Notes under the pieces: generated by a model
Seen by the model: only the letters and a program-made list of their open reading frames with translations
Database searches by the model: none
What the model was told of the DNA's origin: nothing
In this document: positions 3,319 to 19,504 of the stretch, piece after piece
Layout: every line of letters begins with the position of its first letter
Numbering within the stretch: the stretch's first letter is position 1
Program-made: the position numbers and the translations under genes
DNA from: a virus
Strand: one strand, 5' to 3'
DNA length: 21,614 nt
IMG/VR virus record: IMGVR_UViG_3300042554_000697
Coordinates: 1-21,614 of that record

Positions 3319-3668
3319 TGACTGCAGGTATTTACAACTTTACAATGGACCAAGGCTCCAATTGGAATCTCAATGTTCTTTACAAAGATTCAAATGGAGC
3401 AGCCATCAATTTGACTGGCTATACAGCAGCGATGCAATTGCGTCAGAACTATAATTCTGATGATGCTGTTTTGACATTGACTACATCTAATGGTGGCATC
3501 GTTATCACTGGCAATCTAGGAAAACTTGTATTGTCAGCAACTGCTACTCAAACAGGTAATTTAGATGCTGGATATTATGTTTATGATTTAGAAATTGCTT
3601 CGGGTGGAGTTGTCACAAGACTTTTCCAAGGACAAATCACAGTTGCAGGTGAGGTAACCCGTGTCTAA
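3318..3668 (+). CDS. Beta-rich phage structural protein (BppU N-domain-like), putative
   Basis: The protein has 116 residues. The ATG at 3318 is preferred over an upstream TTG because CGGAG lies 5 nt before it and it forms TAATG with the preceding stop. The sequence starts [17 protein letters not shown], then [12 protein letters not shown], and ends with [19 protein letters not shown]. This pattern (start of a fibre module, GYTA.MQLR, and a final strand about deriving a property with a numeric value) resembles small immunoglobulin-like proteins encoded beside phage fibres, including the N-terminal domain of baseplate BppU. It overlaps the collagen-like gene by 8 nt. It is probably a virion component or a connector for the fibre. 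The family assignment is from memory of pattern, not a search. Confidence 0.6.
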
Positions 3669-6363
3669 TAACATTGAAATTTTTGAGGATACAAACACCG
3701 TTGTTGTCAGCGATGTTGGCGTTGCTGGTCCACAAGGTCCTACAGGTGCAACTGGTCCTGCTGGTGCAACTGGTCCTGCTGGTGCAACTGGCGCAACAGG
3801 TGCAACTGGAATTCAAGGTGTAACTGGCGCAACTGGTCCAGTAGGTGCAACAGGTCCTGTTGGTGCTACTGGTGCAACTGGTGTTACAGGTCCTGATGGT
3901 GCAACTGGTCCAGTAGGTGCAACAGGAGCAACTGGTCCTGTCGGTGCGACTGGTGCAACTGGAGCAAGTGGCGCACAAGGTATTCAAGGCATTCAAGGCG
4001 TGCAAGGTATTGAAGGTCCAACTGGTGCTACTGGTCCTCAAGGAAATATCGGTGCAACAGGTCCACAAGGTGCTACTGGTCCAATTGGAGCAACAGGTGC
4101 AACTGGACCGATAGGTGCTACTGGTGCGACTGGTTCTACTGGTGCGACAGGTGCAGGAATTCAAATTCTTGGAACTTATCCAACTTTGGCTGCTCTACAG
4201 GCAGCGCATCCAACTGGTAATTCTGGCGATGCATACATTGTTGGTGCTGGTGATTTGTATGTGTGGAATACAGGAACAAGTTCTTGGGAAAATGTCGGAA
4301 ACATTCAAGGCCCAACTGGTGCAACTGGACCAACAGGACCGATTGGTGCCACAGGTTCAACTGGACCAGTAGGTGCTACTGGTGCTGAAGGTCCAACGGG
4401 AGCAACAGGTCCGACAGGACCAATTGGTGCAACAGGTGCAACAGGACCGACAGGTGCAACAGGTCCAACAGGTCCACAAGGAATCGTTGCTGGTCGTTAT
4501 TATTATTTCAATTCTTCAGTAACTGAATTGACTGGTTTCAAACAATTAGGTGAGGACCCAGTTGCTGCAGCAGAATCCACAACAACTGTCAATGTTGCTG
4601 GAAACACAACTTCTCTTCTTGCTTCATATATTTCAGTGCCATTCAATTTCACATTGATTCCTGGCGGAACTCAACGCTTCATTATGTATATGACAAAGCC
4701 AGCGAGCAATGACAACTTATCTGTTTTCTGTCGTTTGAAATTAGCAGATAACTCAGGAACAGTTCTTTCAACTATTGGCGATTCAGATACAGTATTGACT
4801 GGATGGAATGGTGCAGGTGCGCCAGTTCTAACTGAAACAGACATCACATTGCCAACAACATCAGTCTCTGTTGGACAGAGAATGATTGTTGAAGTTTATG
4901 GGGTCAATGGCGATGCAACTACACACAACTACAGTTTTATCACAGAAGGCACCACACATTATTCGTATGTGGTCACAACTCTTGAAGCGCCACAAGGTCC
5001 ACAAGGACCAACAGGTGCAACGGGTGCCACAGGTCCAATCGGGCCGACAGGCGCAACAGGTCCAACTGGACCTATTGGCGCAACTGGACCGATAGGTGCC
5101 ACGGGCGCAAATGGTGTTGACGGTGCCACAGGCGCGACAGGTCCAACGGGACCTATCGGTGCCACAGGCCCACAAGGACTTGCAGGTGTAGATGGTGCCA
5201 CTGGTGCCACTGGTCCAAGCGGTCCAATCGGTGCTACAGGTCCAATCGGTGCTACAGGACCACAAGGAGTTGCAGGCGATACTGGAGCAACAGGACCAAT
5301 CGGTGCTACTGGTGCCACGGGTCCACAAGGAATTCAAGGCATTCAAGGTGAAGTTGGTGCCACAGGTCCAATCGGTGCAACTGGACCAGTGGGTGCAACA
5401 GGCCCAGTTGGTGCAACAGGTCCAACAGGTATTGATGGCGTTACAGGTCCAACAGGACCAACAGGTGCAAGTGGTGCAACAGGTCCAGTAGGTGCTACTG
5501 GTGCCACAGGACCAACTGGTGCAACAGGACCACAAGGTGTTGAGTTTTCTCCATCTGCTCCTACATCAACAAATGTTCTTTGGGTTGATACTGATGAACC
5601 TGGTGATGCAGTTGTTCCTGCTGGTGGAACTACTGGTCAAGCGTTAGTTAAGGCTTCAAACTCTGATTACGATGCTGTTTGGTCATCAGTTGTTGGACCA
5701 ACAGGTGCAACTGGACCAGTTGGTGCTACTGGACCAACAGGTGCAACAGGACCAAGTGGTTCAAATGGTGCAGTTGGTGCAACAGGTGCGACAGGTGCAA
5801 CTGGTCCATCTGCGTTGACGACCAAAGGTGACATCGCTACTTATTCAACTACGGTTGACCGCTTACCAGTGGGAGCGAATAACACGGTCCTCACTGCCGA
5901 TTCAAGTACGGCGACAGGATTGAAATGGGCTGCTGCTGCTGGTGGCGGGAAAGTCTTGCAGGTGGTTCAGCAATTTTATTCAACTCAAACAGATAGCAGT
6001 TCATCAACTTTTGTAGATACAGGCATAACCTTAAACATTACGCCAAGTTCTACTTCTTCAAAAGTCTTGGCAATAGTGTCAATCAATGGTTGCTTAAAAA
6101 CTGAAGGCAATACAAGCAACTCTCTGTCGTTGAGGTTAATGAGAGGGGCAACTCAACTTATGGAGAGCGAGGATAATGGATTTACCAATTCCGCTTTGTA
6201 TTTGTATATGGGAACACTGGGTATGGTGTATTTAGACTCTCCAAACACCACTTCTGCAACTACATACAAAGTTCAGTTTAGAAATCCTATTGGCGCATCT
6301 TTGGTCAGAATTAATGCGAGTAGTAGTGAAAGCACAATAACATTAATGGAAATAGGTGCATAA
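3661..6363 (+). CDS. Collagen-like tail fibre protein, 900 residues
   Basis: This very long fibre protein has four Gly-X-Y blocks dominated by GAT, GPT, GPQ and GPI triplets, at about residues 23-165, 217-273, 446-625 and 679-717. Between them lie a small domain (166-216, with [14 protein letters not shown] and GDLYVWNTG), a larger beta domain (278-445) and a short linker (627-678). After the last block comes [10 protein letters not shown]...[14 protein letters not shown], a linker common in phage fibres. The C-terminal beta domain (about 760-900, with [16 protein letters not shown]) is probably the trimeric receptor-binding or trimerising head. Collagen triplets would form a triple-helical shaft. 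The start is GTG at 3661 with GAGG 6 nt upstream; the stop overlaps the next ATG. Threonine is frequent in the triplets, which makes O-glycosylation conceivable. Confidence 0.88.
3727..4155 (+). repeat. Collagen-type coding repeat, block 1
   Basis: About 143 codons of Gly-X-Y with a 9-nt unit of the form GGT-GCA-ACT or GGT-CCW-NNN. Repeats are alike at DNA level as well as protein level, so replication slippage or recombination between blocks is plausible. Confidence 0.9.
4309..4482 (+). repeat. Collagen-type coding repeat, block 2
   Basis: About 58 codons of Gly-X-Y, again GAT/GPT/GPI-rich, following a 51-residue non-collagen insert. It shares exact stretches of about 20 nt with block 3 (for example around 4451 and 5411). 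Confidence 0.88.
4996..5538 (+). repeat. Collagen-type coding repeat, block 3
   Basis: The longest block, about 181 codons of Gly-X-Y. It contains a [10 protein letters not shown] interruption resembling [10 protein letters not shown] in block 1, suggesting block duplication. Confidence 0.9.
5695..5811 (+). repeat. Collagen-type coding repeat, block 4
   Basis: About 39 codons of Gly-X-Y immediately before the conserved linker and C-terminal head domain of the fibre. Confidence 0.88.
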
Positions 6364-11234: not shown

Positions 11235-11248
11235 ACATCGGGGGATGT
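11235..11248 (+). promoter_or_regulatory. Hairpin with ribosome site in the loop, before the GT4 gene
   Basis: ACATC-GGGG-GATGT forms a perfect 5-bp stem with a GGGG loop, ending directly before the ATG at 11249. The five-G run is the only ribosome site. An equivalent element with different outer base pairs (GAATC-GGGG-GATTC) stands before the gene at 16414. It could be an RNA hairpin or a dyad protein-binding site. Confidence 0.55.
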
Positions 11249-12328
11249 ATGAGATTCCATGTTGTAAGCCTGCCACATACGCAGGTCACGAAAGAATTTG
11301 CAGGATGCGCCTTCACCGAAAAGGTAAGGCGCTTTTGCATAATGATGACCAACCTTGGTCACGAAGTTTATTTATACGCTGGCGAGAAGGTTGAAGCGCC
11401 AGTCACAAAACTTATTACTTGCATCTCCGAAGAGCGCCGCGCACAGGCAGTTGGCAACAGCCACTACACGCAGGCATCATTCGATACCAGTGCGTTGCAC
11501 TGGCGTGTATTCAACACCAATGTGATTCGGCTGATGCAAAGCCACTTGCAGCCGCAAGATTTCATCTGTCTCATTGGTGGATACGCTCATAAAGAGATTG
11601 CTGATAAATACCCCAATCACATCATCGTTGAGTTCGGCGTGGGATATGGCGGCGTTTTTAGTAAGTATCGCGTTTTTGAATCATATGCCTGGATGCATTC
11701 AATTTATGCAGCCCACAAGAATCCGACTGCTGTTGATGGTCAATTCTTTGACACTGTGATTCCTGGATACCTAGAGCCAGAGATGTTCCCGCTTGGTGAA
11801 GGCAAAGGTGATTACTACCTTTTCATTGGGCGATTGATTGAACGCAAAGGTTACAAAATTGCTCAGGAAGTCTGCCAGCGCCTAGGCAAGAGACTTATCC
11901 TGGCAGGTCCTGGTGAGCAATCAGGATATGGAGAGTTTGTTGGCTCAGTAGGGCCAGAACAAAGAGCAGAGTTGATGAGCAATGCCATCGCAACCTTTGC
12001 TCCAACGCTGTATATCGAACCATTCGGAAATGTGGTGATTGAAGCCCAAGCCTGTGGCACACCAACAATCACAACCGATTGGGGAGCATTTACAGAGAAC
12101 AACATCAACGGTCTAACAGGCTACCGTTGCAGAACGCTGCAAGAATTTATGGATGCAGCCGAAAAGGTCAAGACACTAGACCGAAAGAAAATCAGAGAAC
12201 ATTCTGTTGGCAGATATGCATTAGATGTTATCGCCAAAGAATACGAAGATTACTTCCTCAGACTGCTAACCCTTTGGGATGGCGGTTGGTATCACTTAGC
12301 AGAAAAGGCAGGCAATGAGTCTATCTAA
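11249..12328 (+). CDS. Glycosyltransferase, GT4-like (GT-B fold)
   Basis: The protein has 359 residues. The C-terminal half carries the donor-binding signature of GT4 enzymes: FIGRLIERKG at 192-201, LILAGPG at about 216-222, and the E-x7-E motif EPFGNVVIE at 257-265 followed by AQACGTPTITT. The N-terminal half (FAGCAFTEKVRRFCIMMTNLGHEVYLYAG) is the acceptor-side Rossmann domain. It transfers a sugar from a nucleotide donor. The acceptor is unknown; a virion protein, such as the Thr-rich collagen fibre encoded upstream, or a host-surface glycan are both possible. It stands alone between the adhesin cassette and the portal, overlaps the portal start by 14 nt, and uses a hairpin-borne G5 ribosome site shared with the other glycosyltransferase. 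Confidence 0.85.
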   Translation: MRFHVVSLPHTQVTKEFAGCAFTEKVRRFCIMMTNLGHEVYLYAGEKVEAPVTKLITCISEERRAQAVGNSHYTQASFDTSALHWRVFNTNVIRLMQSHLQPQDFICLIGGYAHKEIADKYPNHIIVEFGVGYGGVFSKYRVFESYAWMHSIYAAHKNPTAVDGQFFDTVIPGYLEPEMFPLGEGKGDYYLFIGRLIERKGYKIAQEVCQRLGKRLILAGPGEQSGYGEFVGSVGPEQRAELMSNAIATFAPTLYIEPFGNVVIEAQACGTPTITTDWGAFTENNINGLTGYRCRTLQEFMDAAEKVKTLDRKKIREHSVGRYALDVIAKEYEDYFLRLLTLWDGGWYHLAEKAGNESI

Positions 12329-14982: not shown

Positions 14983-16323
14983 ATGTCATACCTTGACAAA
15001 GTTGTTGAGCGCCGTGATGCAGTGAAGGCTGAAATGGATGCAGTTCTTGAAGCAGTTGCTGCTGAGAACCGTACCGACCTTACTGCTGAGGAAACCGAAA
15101 AGGTTGATGCCCTCGTTGAAGAATCACGCTCGCTCGATGCTAAGATTGAGAAGTTGACTGCACAGGCAGCAGCAGATGCAAAGGCAGCAGAAGCACGCGC
15201 TGTAGTTGCAGATGCACTACCAAAGGCAACAACTTCAATCGTTCGCGAAGCACGCACATACACACCAGAAGCAGGTCACTCATTCGTTCGTGATGCATTC
15301 AATGCTCAAGTTCGTGGAGACTTTGCTGCACAAGAGCGTCTTGCACGCCACATGAAGGAAGAGTCTGTTGAATCACGCGCAGTTGATACTTCAAACTTCG
15401 CAGGACTCGTAGTTCCACAATACCTCGTTGACCTCGCTGCACCTCTTGCACGCGCAGGCCGTCCAACTGCTGATTTCGCAACAAACAAGATGGCACTTCC
15501 TGCCGCTGGTATGTCGCTAGAAATTAGCCGTATGACCACAGGTACATCAACAGCAATCCAGGAAACACAGAACACTTCTGTTTCCAATACCGATGCAGAT
15601 GACACCCTGCTCTCTGTCCCAGTGCGTACCATCGCGGGACAACAGGACCTATCCCGCCAAGCAATTGAGCGCGGAACAGGCATTGATGCATTTGTTGTTG
15701 CTGACTTGATTCGTTCATTCCACACAACACTTGATTCACAGGTACTCAACGGAACTGGTTCCAATGGACAGTTCAAGGGTATCCGCGCTTCAGGTGGAAA
15801 CGCAATCACCTTCACATCAACAGCACCAACAGTTGCATTGCTATATCCAAAGTTGGCAGATGCTCTACAGCAAGTTCAGAGCAATGTGTTCACCACACCA
15901 ACTCACTGGATTATGCACCCACGCCGCCTAGCATTCTTGCTCGCTGCAGTTGATACTGCAGGCCGTCCAGTAGTTGTTCCAACTGCTAACGGACCAATGA
16001 ACGCTGCTGGAGTTGGCGCAGGCGCTGCTCAGTATGCAAACAGCGGATACCAACTTCTTGGTCTCCCAATCATCACTGATGCAAATGTTGCTACAAACTA
16101 CGGTGCAGCCACCAACCAAGATGAAATCTATCTTGTTGATGCACGCGAAATGCACCTCTGGGAGCAACCAGGCTCACCATTCTCACTCCGCTTTGATGCA
16201 ACTGCCCCTGGCAGCCTAACCATCAAGACTGTTGTGTATGGATTCTCTGCATTCACCGCAGAGCGCTATCCAAAGGCCGCTTCAATCATCAGCGGTACTG
16301 GTCTAGTTGCACCATCGTTCTAG
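14983..16323 (+). CDS. Major capsid protein, HK97 fold
   Basis: The protein has 446 residues. Residues 1 to about 100 are a charged helical delta (scaffold) domain (VVERRDAVKAEMDAVLEAVA, LTAEETEKVDALVEESRSLDAKIEKL), the part the upstream protease would remove. The shell domain follows, with FVRDAFNAQVRGDF, GLVVPQYLVDLAAPLARAGRP, the P-domain region HWIMHPRRLAFLLAAVD, and a late YLVDAREMHLWEQPGSPFSLRFD. These features and the position after portal and protease are standard for HK97-type capsids. AAGGAG lies 9 nt before the ATG. The cleavage position cannot be fixed by eye; the region around 125-140 is a candidate. The gene is followed by strong inverted repeats. Confidence 0.95.
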   Translation: MSYLDKVVERRDAVKAEMDAVLEAVAAENRTDLTAEETEKVDALVEESRSLDAKIEKLTAQAAADAKAAEARAVVADALPKATTSIVREARTYTPEAGHSFVRDAFNAQVRGDFAAQERLARHMKEESVESRAVDTSNFAGLVVPQYLVDLAAPLARAGRPTADFATNKMALPAAGMSLEISRMTTGTSTAIQETQNTSVSNTDADDTLLSVPVRTIAGQQDLSRQAIERGTGIDAFVVADLIRSFHTTLDSQVLNGTGSNGQFKGIRASGGNAITFTSTAPTVALLYPKLADALQQVQSNVFTTPTHWIMHPRRLAFLLAAVDTAGRPVVVPTANGPMNAAGVGAGAAQYANSGYQLLGLPIITDANVATNYGAATNQDEIYLVDAREMHLWEQPGSPFSLRFDATAPGSLTIKTVVYGFSAFTAERYPKAASIISGTGLVAPSF

Positions 16324-16332
16324 TTAGAACGA

Positions 16333-16348
16333 ACAACTAAATAGTTGT
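16333..16348 (+). repeat. Inverted repeat after the capsid gene (first stem)
   Basis: ACAACTA-AA-TAGTTGT is a perfect 7-bp dyad 9 nt after the capsid stop. Its last two bases are also the first two of the larger stem at 16347-16390, so the two structures compete at their boundary. Confidence 0.6.
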
Positions 16349-16390
16349 GTAGGAGCAGGTGGGAATCCCCCGACCTGCCTGCTCCTACAC
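16347..16390 (+). terminator. Strong hairpin after capsid gene, terminator-like without U-tract
   Basis: GTGTAGGAGCAGG at 16347-16359 pairs perfectly with CCTGCTCCTACAC at 16378-16390, leaving an 18-nt loop. The stem is GC-rich and lies 23 nt after the capsid stop, which fits a transcription attenuator or an mRNA 3'-end stabiliser for an abundant transcript. The bases after it (TTCCTAACG) are not a U-run, so it is not a textbook intrinsic terminator. The loop holds the C-rich element that can pair with the next gene's ribosome site. Confidence 0.6.
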
Positions 16391-16412
16391 TTCCTAACGA
16401 ATCGGGGGATTC
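16363..16412 (+). promoter_or_regulatory. Possible RNA switch sequestering the GT-A gene ribosome site
   Basis: GAATCCCCCGA at 16363-16373, in the loop of the preceding hairpin, is perfectly complementary over 11 nt to TCGGGGGATTC at 16402-16412, which contains the G5 ribosome site of the ATG at 16414. Pairing would form a pseudoknot over the start region. The same G-rich segment can instead fold locally as GAATC-GGGG-GATTC (16399-16412), exposing the Gs in the loop. The two folds exclude each other. Confidence 0.5.
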
Positions 16413-16413
16413 A

Positions 16414-17097
16414 ATGAAAACAGGACATAAAGTTTCAATCGGTGCGTGTGACCCAGGCACCGTCAATGCGGCGTGGGCATATCGGATGTTTCAACTCTGC
16501 CAAGACCGCCGTGACAAATTAGGGCCATTTGTCAGAATAAAAGGCTCTGGATTACTTTCCAAGATGCGCAATCGAATTGTCAAAGCATTTCTTGAAAATA
16601 CTGACTCAGATTGGCTCTTGATGATTGATGTGGATGAACAACTCTCCACAGAAGTATTTGATTTACTTATTCAAACCGCTCACGATAAAGAGCGACCAGT
16701 TGTATCAGGTTTAGTTTTCGCAGCCTTTGATGCTCACAAACACTTGTACCCAAAACCTGTACCAGCAATCTTTCAGGATGCGCCAGAAGGCTTCTTGCCT
16801 TTGTTCAAGTATGACCGAAATTCAGTCTTTCAGATTGATGCGTGTGGAACTGGTTGTGTTCTCATACATCGCAGCGTTCTTGAAAAAATGCGTGAGTACG
16901 CTGACCCAAACCAAGGTGAAGATTGGTGCTGGTTTTGGGATGGTCCGATTGATGGCAAATGGATTAGTGAAGATTTGCTGTTTTCGCGCCGTATAAGACA
17001 ATTGGGCTTTCCAATCTATGTCAACACAGCAGCAGTTTTACCCCATCAGAAGTCATATTGGCTATCAGAGGAACACCACCTATCGTGGAAAGAATAA
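16414..17097 (+). CDS. Glycosyltransferase-like protein, GT-A (GT2-like) fold
   Basis: The protein has 227 residues from the ATG at 16414; an upstream TTG at 16345 would start inside the hairpins and is rejected. The N-terminus (VSIGACDPGTVNAAWAYRMFQL) is a nucleotide-sugar fold start. RNRIVKAFLENTDSDWLLMIDVDE gives a metal-binding DVD at 72-74. CGTGCVLIHRSVLEKM lies near 144-159. WISEDLLFSRRIRQLG supplies the ED pair at 186-187, the usual catalytic acid region, and ends near a histidine (LPHQK). Its position directly after the capsid gene suggests it may modify capsid or tail proteins, as some actinobacteriophages are known to do, but the acceptor is unknown. It shares its ribosome-site hairpin type with the GT4 gene. 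Confidence 0.78.
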   Translation: MKTGHKVSIGACDPGTVNAAWAYRMFQLCQDRRDKLGPFVRIKGSGLLSKMRNRIVKAFLENTDSDWLLMIDVDEQLSTEVFDLLIQTAHDKERPVVSGLVFAAFDAHKHLYPKPVPAIFQDAPEGFLPLFKYDRNSVFQIDACGTGCVLIHRSVLEKMREYADPNQGEDWCWFWDGPIDGKWISEDLLFSRRIRQLGFPIYVNTAAVLPHQKSYWLSEEHHLSWKE

Positions 17098-19204: not shown

Positions 19205-19225
19205 TAACTAATAGGGGGAAATACA

Positions 19226-19504
19226 ATGGATGGATTAGCAATCAAAGTAAAAACTGCCGATGGTAATGAGTCAATCTATAAACTGACTCCACGCATCATC
19301 GTTGCATTTGAGCAGAACTTTGGCAAAGGGTTGCCACACCTAATCGGCACCGAGCAGAAAATAGAACATATCTATTGGTTGGCTTGGAAAGCACAGCAAG
19401 TCAATGGAGTTGTGGTCAAACCATTCGGACCTGATTATTTAGATACAATTCTCAGCGCAGAATTGGATGCCGACCCAAATTTCGAATCCACCGCGAAAGC
19501 CTGA
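19226..19504 (+). CDS. Tail assembly chaperone, short (unshifted) product
   Basis: The protein has 92 residues in the unshifted frame: AIKVKTADGNESIYKLTPRIIVAFEQNFGKGL, then KIEHIYWLAWKAQQVNGV, and FGPDYLDTILSAELDAD before the shift site. This is the pattern of lambda gpG-like chaperones that bind the tape measure and tube subunits during tail assembly. GGGGGA at 19214-19219 is the ribosome site. It stands directly before the genes leading to the tape measure, as usual. The frame ends at TGA 19502-19504, 7 codons after the second slippery heptamer. Confidence 0.85.
   Translation: MDGLAIKVKTADGNESIYKLTPRIIVAFEQNFGKGLPHLIGTEQKIEHIYWLAWKAQQVNGVVVKPFGPDYLDTILSAELDADPNFESTAKA

Follow-up and report, generated by a model that had tools for sequence, protein, structure and literature searches.

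Does the short interval between the major capsid gene and the following glycosyltransferase gene of an uncultured phage encode an RNA switch, and if not, what does it encode? The window, by which we mean the whole 21,614-nt stretch of DNA analyzed here, is a 21.6-kb virus record that protein family searches identify as a tailed-phage late region, with genes in the order terminase, portal, protease, HK97-like capsid, GT2, connectors and tail genes. The HK97-like major capsid gene (14983..16323, + strand; PF05065, E 4e-17; phrog_2263, major head protein) is followed by the glycosyltransferase gene GT2 (16414..17097, + strand; phrog_34859, E 5e-25; PF00535, E 7e-4, below the curated cut-off), and a second glycosyltransferase gene unrelated to GT2, GT1, lies at 11249-12328. 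Capsid relatives point to freshwater Actinobacteria as the probable hosts. Freshwater actinophages, two isolates among them, carry glycosyltransferases (PMC10202952), and for one mycobacteriophage it has been proposed that phage glycosyltransferases glycosylate the capsid (PMC11256854). A protein search with GT2 returned only two distant matches among cultured phages (25% identity), and no homologue was found in bacterial genomes.

Results

A sequence-only reading of the window had described four pairings between the capsid and glycosyltransferase genes and proposed that they form a switch acting on GT2. A repeat search recovered three of them where they had been placed, and the fourth is likewise present in the sequence. 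The outermost, a 7-bp dyad (16333..16348, + strand; 16333-16339 with 16342-16348, 100%), exists and overlaps the long stem by two bases; only close relatives keep it, so that it lacks wide conservation. The 13-nt stem (16347-16359 with 16378-16390, 100% match) is part of a longer helix, since in the register common to relatives it reaches 17 bp, including two G-U pairs, between a 5′ arm at 16347..16363 and a 3′ arm at 16374..16390 (both + strand). It encloses the 10-nt loop AAUCCCCCGA (16364..16373, + strand), whose core CCCCCGA is nearly invariant in relatives. Positions 16363-16373 match the GT2 ribosome site over 11 nt (100%): UCGGGGGAUUC (16402..16412, + strand), whose G5 core is the ribosome site, is their perfect complement and is separated from the stem by an 11-nt linker (16391-16401). 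Comparison with relatives indicates that a perfect 11-nt match is peculiar to the neighbourhood of the window. The fourth pairing, a local 5-bp hairpin, corresponds to the dyad GAATC-GGGG-GATTC, that is, a mini-hairpin GAAUC-GGGG-GAUUC holding the GT2 ribosome-binding site (16399..16412, + strand).

Folding of 16320-16440 yielded −40.8 kcal/mol as compared to −25.4±3.1 kcal/mol for shuffled sequences (z = −5.0, none of 200 as low). The 17-bp stem and this z-score agree with the G+C-rich hairpin expected of an intrinsic terminator. The T run expected after the stem is absent, TTCCTAACG following it instead, and a terminator scan misses the hairpin; a U tract behind the hairpin is found in none of the relatives. 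Ordinary intrinsic termination is therefore not expected, and the contention that the interval holds more than a simple terminator is borne out to the extent that a real RNA structure is present without a U tract.

Relatives were gathered using GT2 protein, capsid protein and loop-pattern searches, which yielded several hundred loci. The capsid end and the GT2 start are both present in 385 loci (some contigs being counted more than once), representing 135 distinct intergenic sequences, and the hairpin occurs in every one of these (135/135). Likewise, all pattern matches with both sides recognisable (108/108) place the motif between capsid and GT2, and a covariance model found a single site per genome in 19/19 long relatives, second listings repeating that site on the opposite strand. 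In every relative showing it, the hairpin stands behind the capsid gene, whether a glycosyltransferase gene is present or absent, and starts some 20-30 nt past the capsid stop codon (~24 nt in the window).

Compensatory change, looked for as the earlier reading had suggested, is strong in the long stem against both shuffled and slid controls. In a set of 28 sequences less than ~86% alike, 92% of stem cells are paired (68% when shuffled) and 128 cells are double-changed as opposed to 35±6 in shuffled alignments; the covariation score of the stem is 0.78, slid controls ranging from 0.12 to 0.18. A permutation test gave 1255/1440 paired cells versus 970±12 permuted. The first helix of a potential H-type pseudoknot is thus kept by compensatory change. 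Across 90 distinct segments, leaving out a column occupied mainly by an A-A mismatch, G-U cells (141) far exceed A-C cells (12), which indicates that the element is a + strand RNA. A DNA element or a minus-strand RNA was rejected on the same excess and on the higher scores of the covariance model on the + strand. We also discarded a read-through or frameshift signal, given that in the window an in-frame stop occurs at most ~20 nt after the capsid stop, ahead of the stem, as well as a coding role for the ORF 16345-17097, which runs uninterrupted across the hairpin: the lengths of the intergenic intervals are spread over all three frames, and in 78/135 relatives the last 70 nt contain a stop in the frame of this ORF. 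None of 4227 Rfam families matched the window at gathering score, only chance-level matches appearing at E values up to 10, and a literature search conducted largely without subscription papers found no described equivalent. Altogether, a real, conserved and apparently undescribed structured RNA is well supported.

The loop has a different history from that of the stem. Among the 135 distinct sequences, (U)CCCCCGA is nearly fixed as CCCCCG(A/G), at times with six Cs, while the stem has turned over almost completely. This observation bears on an explanation according to which the element is an ordinary post-capsid terminator or mRNA-stabilising hairpin with a loop fixed by hairpin stability or common descent only. 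Related actinophages do in general have a strong hairpin right after the capsid gene: one of 10-20 bp closely follows this gene in most of the prophages and cultured mycobacteriophages whose capsids are 31-46% identical. Nevertheless, an explanation of this kind sits badly with a loop that stayed fixed as its stem was replaced, C5 is not known as a stable loop, and the U tract is missing; we consider it distinctly improbable. The distant hairpins themselves (L432-L458, L556-L559) have variable loops, no U tract and no CCCCCGA loop, and a covariance-model search of the related prophage and mycobacteriophage loci gave no match. These comparisons suggest that post-capsid hairpins are old and that the studied clade added the CCCCCGA loop.

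Could the loop be conserved because it pairs with the GT2 ribosome site? In a cis-acting pseudoknot switch, the C5 loop would pair with the G5 site of GT2, block its translation and compete with the local SD hairpin. C5 is found in the loop of all GT2-bearing relatives, G5 at the GT2 ribosome site in 81/82 distinct upstream stretches, never swapped for GGAGG, and the longest loop-leader match spans 5-10 nt in all 135 distinct GT-bearing sequences. The predicted loop:SD duplex (−11.0 to −19.1 kcal/mol where GT2 follows) is stronger than SD:anti-SD pairing (−8.4 to −11.4 kcal/mol) in every lineage and also stronger than the local SD hairpin, except in L406, where it equals the local fold. Pseudoknot formation carries an energy penalty, for which these values leave room, and the 11-nt linker is long enough in principle; loop-SD pairing is hence predicted to be energetically plausible wherever GT2 follows. 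Against this stands the geometry, as the realistic limit for the second helix of an H-type pseudoknot is 6-8 bp for a 10-nt loop, which makes 11 bp sterically unlikely. Furthermore, the covariation looked for between loop and SD did not materialize beyond the fixed core: 25 lineages gave 7.44 bp versus 7.32 bp permuted (p = 0.23), and the second helix is accordingly not seen to be kept by compensatory change. The 11-nt perfection in the window appears to be an extension of an invariant C5:G5 core, which covariation neither proves nor excludes. G5 sites are also widespread across these genomes, and the loop is intact where the next gene lacks a G-run site. On balance, we regard the cis switch as tentative and on the unlikely side.

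The latter point deserves attention. Hairpin and loop persist in phages without GT2. In five such loci (L383, L397, L398, L408 and L409), no G-run ribosome site precedes the next gene and the predicted duplex falls to −3 to −5 kcal/mol, whereas pairing stays at about −11.5 to −11.9 kcal/mol in GT2-less loci of the L380-L403 type (small ORF, CGGGGUGA) and in L404/L405 (GGGGG). The presence of GT2 changes at least 6 times on a capsid tree whose details are soft (140 columns only), and the loop is kept throughout, from which it follows that its conservation has a GT2-independent reason. Independent variation of loop and G5, which the sequence-only reading had named as evidence against a switch, was thereby found in part: the loop is unchanged in loci lacking a G-run site (L383, L397, L408 and L409) and many G5 sites elsewhere occur in the absence of a loop of this kind, yet the loop is complementary to G5 wherever a glycosyltransferase gene follows. 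As for the switch as a whole, the structure, the covariation of stem and SD hairpin, and the loop-G5 complementarity hold, while loop-SD covariation fails and the first dyad is not widely conserved. A switch between the loop and the glycosyltransferase ribosome site is consequently a hypothesis, possible but unproven. A promoter scan of the window revealed no promoter-like site between the capsid and GT2 genes.

GT2 itself behaves as a cassette that comes and goes with its own G5 ribosome site (L383, L397, L406, L409 and neighbours), L406 and L409 having nearly identical hairpins with and without GT2, respectively.

The local hairpin at the GT2 ribosome site fared better than the loop pairing, as it covaries (2.73 bp versus 1.55±0.09 permuted, 64 distinct sequences). 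The same holds for a mini-hairpin in the leader of GT1, ACAUC-GGGG-GAUGU (11235..11248, + strand), which carries a G5 ribosome site (3.43 bp versus 2.37±0.15 permuted, 28 distinct sequences). At both genes, the ribosome site therefore lies in a compensated hairpin, as in SD-sequestering leaders. G5 in itself is frequent as a ribosome site, each long record having 3-8 pattern matches, of which nearly all lie on the coding strand. Since these matches occur at many genes, the idea that G5 specially marks three genes is weakened. Gene by gene, G5 is conserved in 49/56 distinct upstream stretches of GT1, in the 81/82 of GT2 mentioned above and in 99/99 of a tail-chaperone-like gene, and in none of eleven other genes. 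What distinguishes the glycosyltransferase genes is the dyad around G5 (GAATC-GGGG-GATTC, GATTC-GGGG-GAATC, ACATC-GGGG-GATGT or GGTC-GGGG-GACC), which is absent at 83/83 chaperone sites and at 44/48 other G5 sites; the mini-hairpin is missing in 7/25 lineages. Where the slot before the portal gene holds an unrelated beta-1,4-glycosyltransferase-like gene (phrog_13126), the GGTC leader is found there too. In L162, a GGTC-GGGGG-ACC leader precedes a minus-strand gene of 329 aa located upstream of the portal gene, not directly before it; this gene has no Pfam or PHROGs match and may encode an unrecognised sugar-related enzyme. On sequence grounds, the case for tying the SD mini-hairpin to glycosyltransferases appears strong, its exclusivity not being proven.

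These shared leaders raise another possibility, namely that the capsid 3′ hairpin is a trans-acting regulator whose loop is antisense to the G5 sites of several genes, above all glycosyltransferases. The SD hairpins of the glycosyltransferase genes display UCGGGGGA, the exact complement of UCCCCCGA, in a hairpin common to the GT1 and GT2 leaders and to a third glycosyltransferase family at the GT1 slot; three GT2-less genomes (G008, G009 and G010) keep a glycosyltransferase gene with a UCGGGGGA leader at that slot, and the GA of the loop fits the glycosyltransferase leaders better than the chaperone sites. Opposing observations are that L434 keeps the G5 of the chaperone gene without a C5 loop, that at least one long record (G013) keeps a C-rich loop with no G5 site in an SD hairpin before a glycosyltransferase gene, and that both partners are invariant, so that covariation cannot decide. 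Control in trans seems improbable to us. A combined version, in which the UCCCCCGA loop of the capsid 3′ hairpin would pair with the UCGGGGGA ribosome-site hairpins in cis at GT2 and in trans at the glycosyltransferase gene of the portal-side slot, coupling virion-modifying enzymes to capsid expression, is rather unlikely.

Discussion

Most weight goes to a post-capsid boundary hairpin standing beside a separately structured glycosyltransferase ribosome site, which outweighs both cis loop-SD and trans control and to which we assign a probability of roughly 0.5. In this best reading, the long + strand hairpin with its (U)CCCCCGA loop most probably marks where the capsid message ends, a role suggested by its position, its stability and the same placement of hairpins in distant actinophages. 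It could shield the 3′ end of a capsid mRNA generated by processing or by premature ending or, alternatively, be transcribed through only in part, such that capsid protein would exceed the products of later genes. The second module would be the mini-hairpin, which covariation indicates carries the G5 ribosome site in and beside its loop and which probably damps glycosyltransferase translation. If the next gene is a glycosyltransferase gene, its G5 site is complementary to the C5 loop and lies within pairing distance of it, and an energetically plausible pairing might damp translation of this gene further. We infer termination, 3′-end protection and reduced translation, each as a step of function, from comparison of sequences. 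A boundary role alone leaves the fixed loop sequence unexplained, and loop-SD pairing cannot be the sole cause of loop conservation because the loop is kept in the absence of a glycosyltransferase gene or G5; the loop probably has a second partner, which may be a protein or a trans-acting RNA.

Several known systems offer partial parallels. Phage T7 has a post-capsid terminator, T-phi, behind gene 10. Like T-phi, the hairpin described here is a strong structure right behind the major capsid gene that is expected to raise capsid over downstream genes; unlike T-phi, it has no U tract, and its strictly conserved loop is complementary to the ribosome site of the following gene. The T4 gene 32 leader is a translational-operator pseudoknot, and it resembles our locus as a phage mRNA structure near a ribosome site in which a pseudoknot is possible. 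Here, on the other hand, the second helix shows no covariation, its partner is missing in some relatives and there is no known bound protein. CsrA-type GGA loops represent one kind of SD-sequestering leader hairpin, and the glycosyltransferase genes similarly have the ribosome site GGGGGA in a small hairpin, though one with a freely varying outer stem sequence and nearly confined to glycosyltransferase genes. Finally, comparative and metagenome surveys have yielded candidate structured RNAs (PMC2864571) which, like our hairpin, are covarying structures found by comparison and without an assigned function; in contrast to those candidates, our hairpin is unmatched by any Rfam family searched.

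The element is apparently an undescribed RNA of freshwater phages, present in every relative in which the capsid end is covered. With its fixed loop and the glycosyltransferase-linked ribosome-site hairpins, late-gene dosage control in difficult-to-culture actinophages gains two concrete parts that can be tested. Should loop and leaders interact, they would constitute a phage circuit tying glycosyltransferases to capsid expression.

Other parts of the late region also drew our attention. A long collagen-like Gly-X-Y repeat protein is encoded at 3661-6363. Upstream of the ORF starting at 19226, the GGGGGA ribosome site (19214-19218) is invariant in 99/99 stretches and has no dyad; the ORF (19226-19504), together with the next 120 bases, possibly encodes a tail assembly chaperone, whose overlapping extension downstream may require a frameshift.
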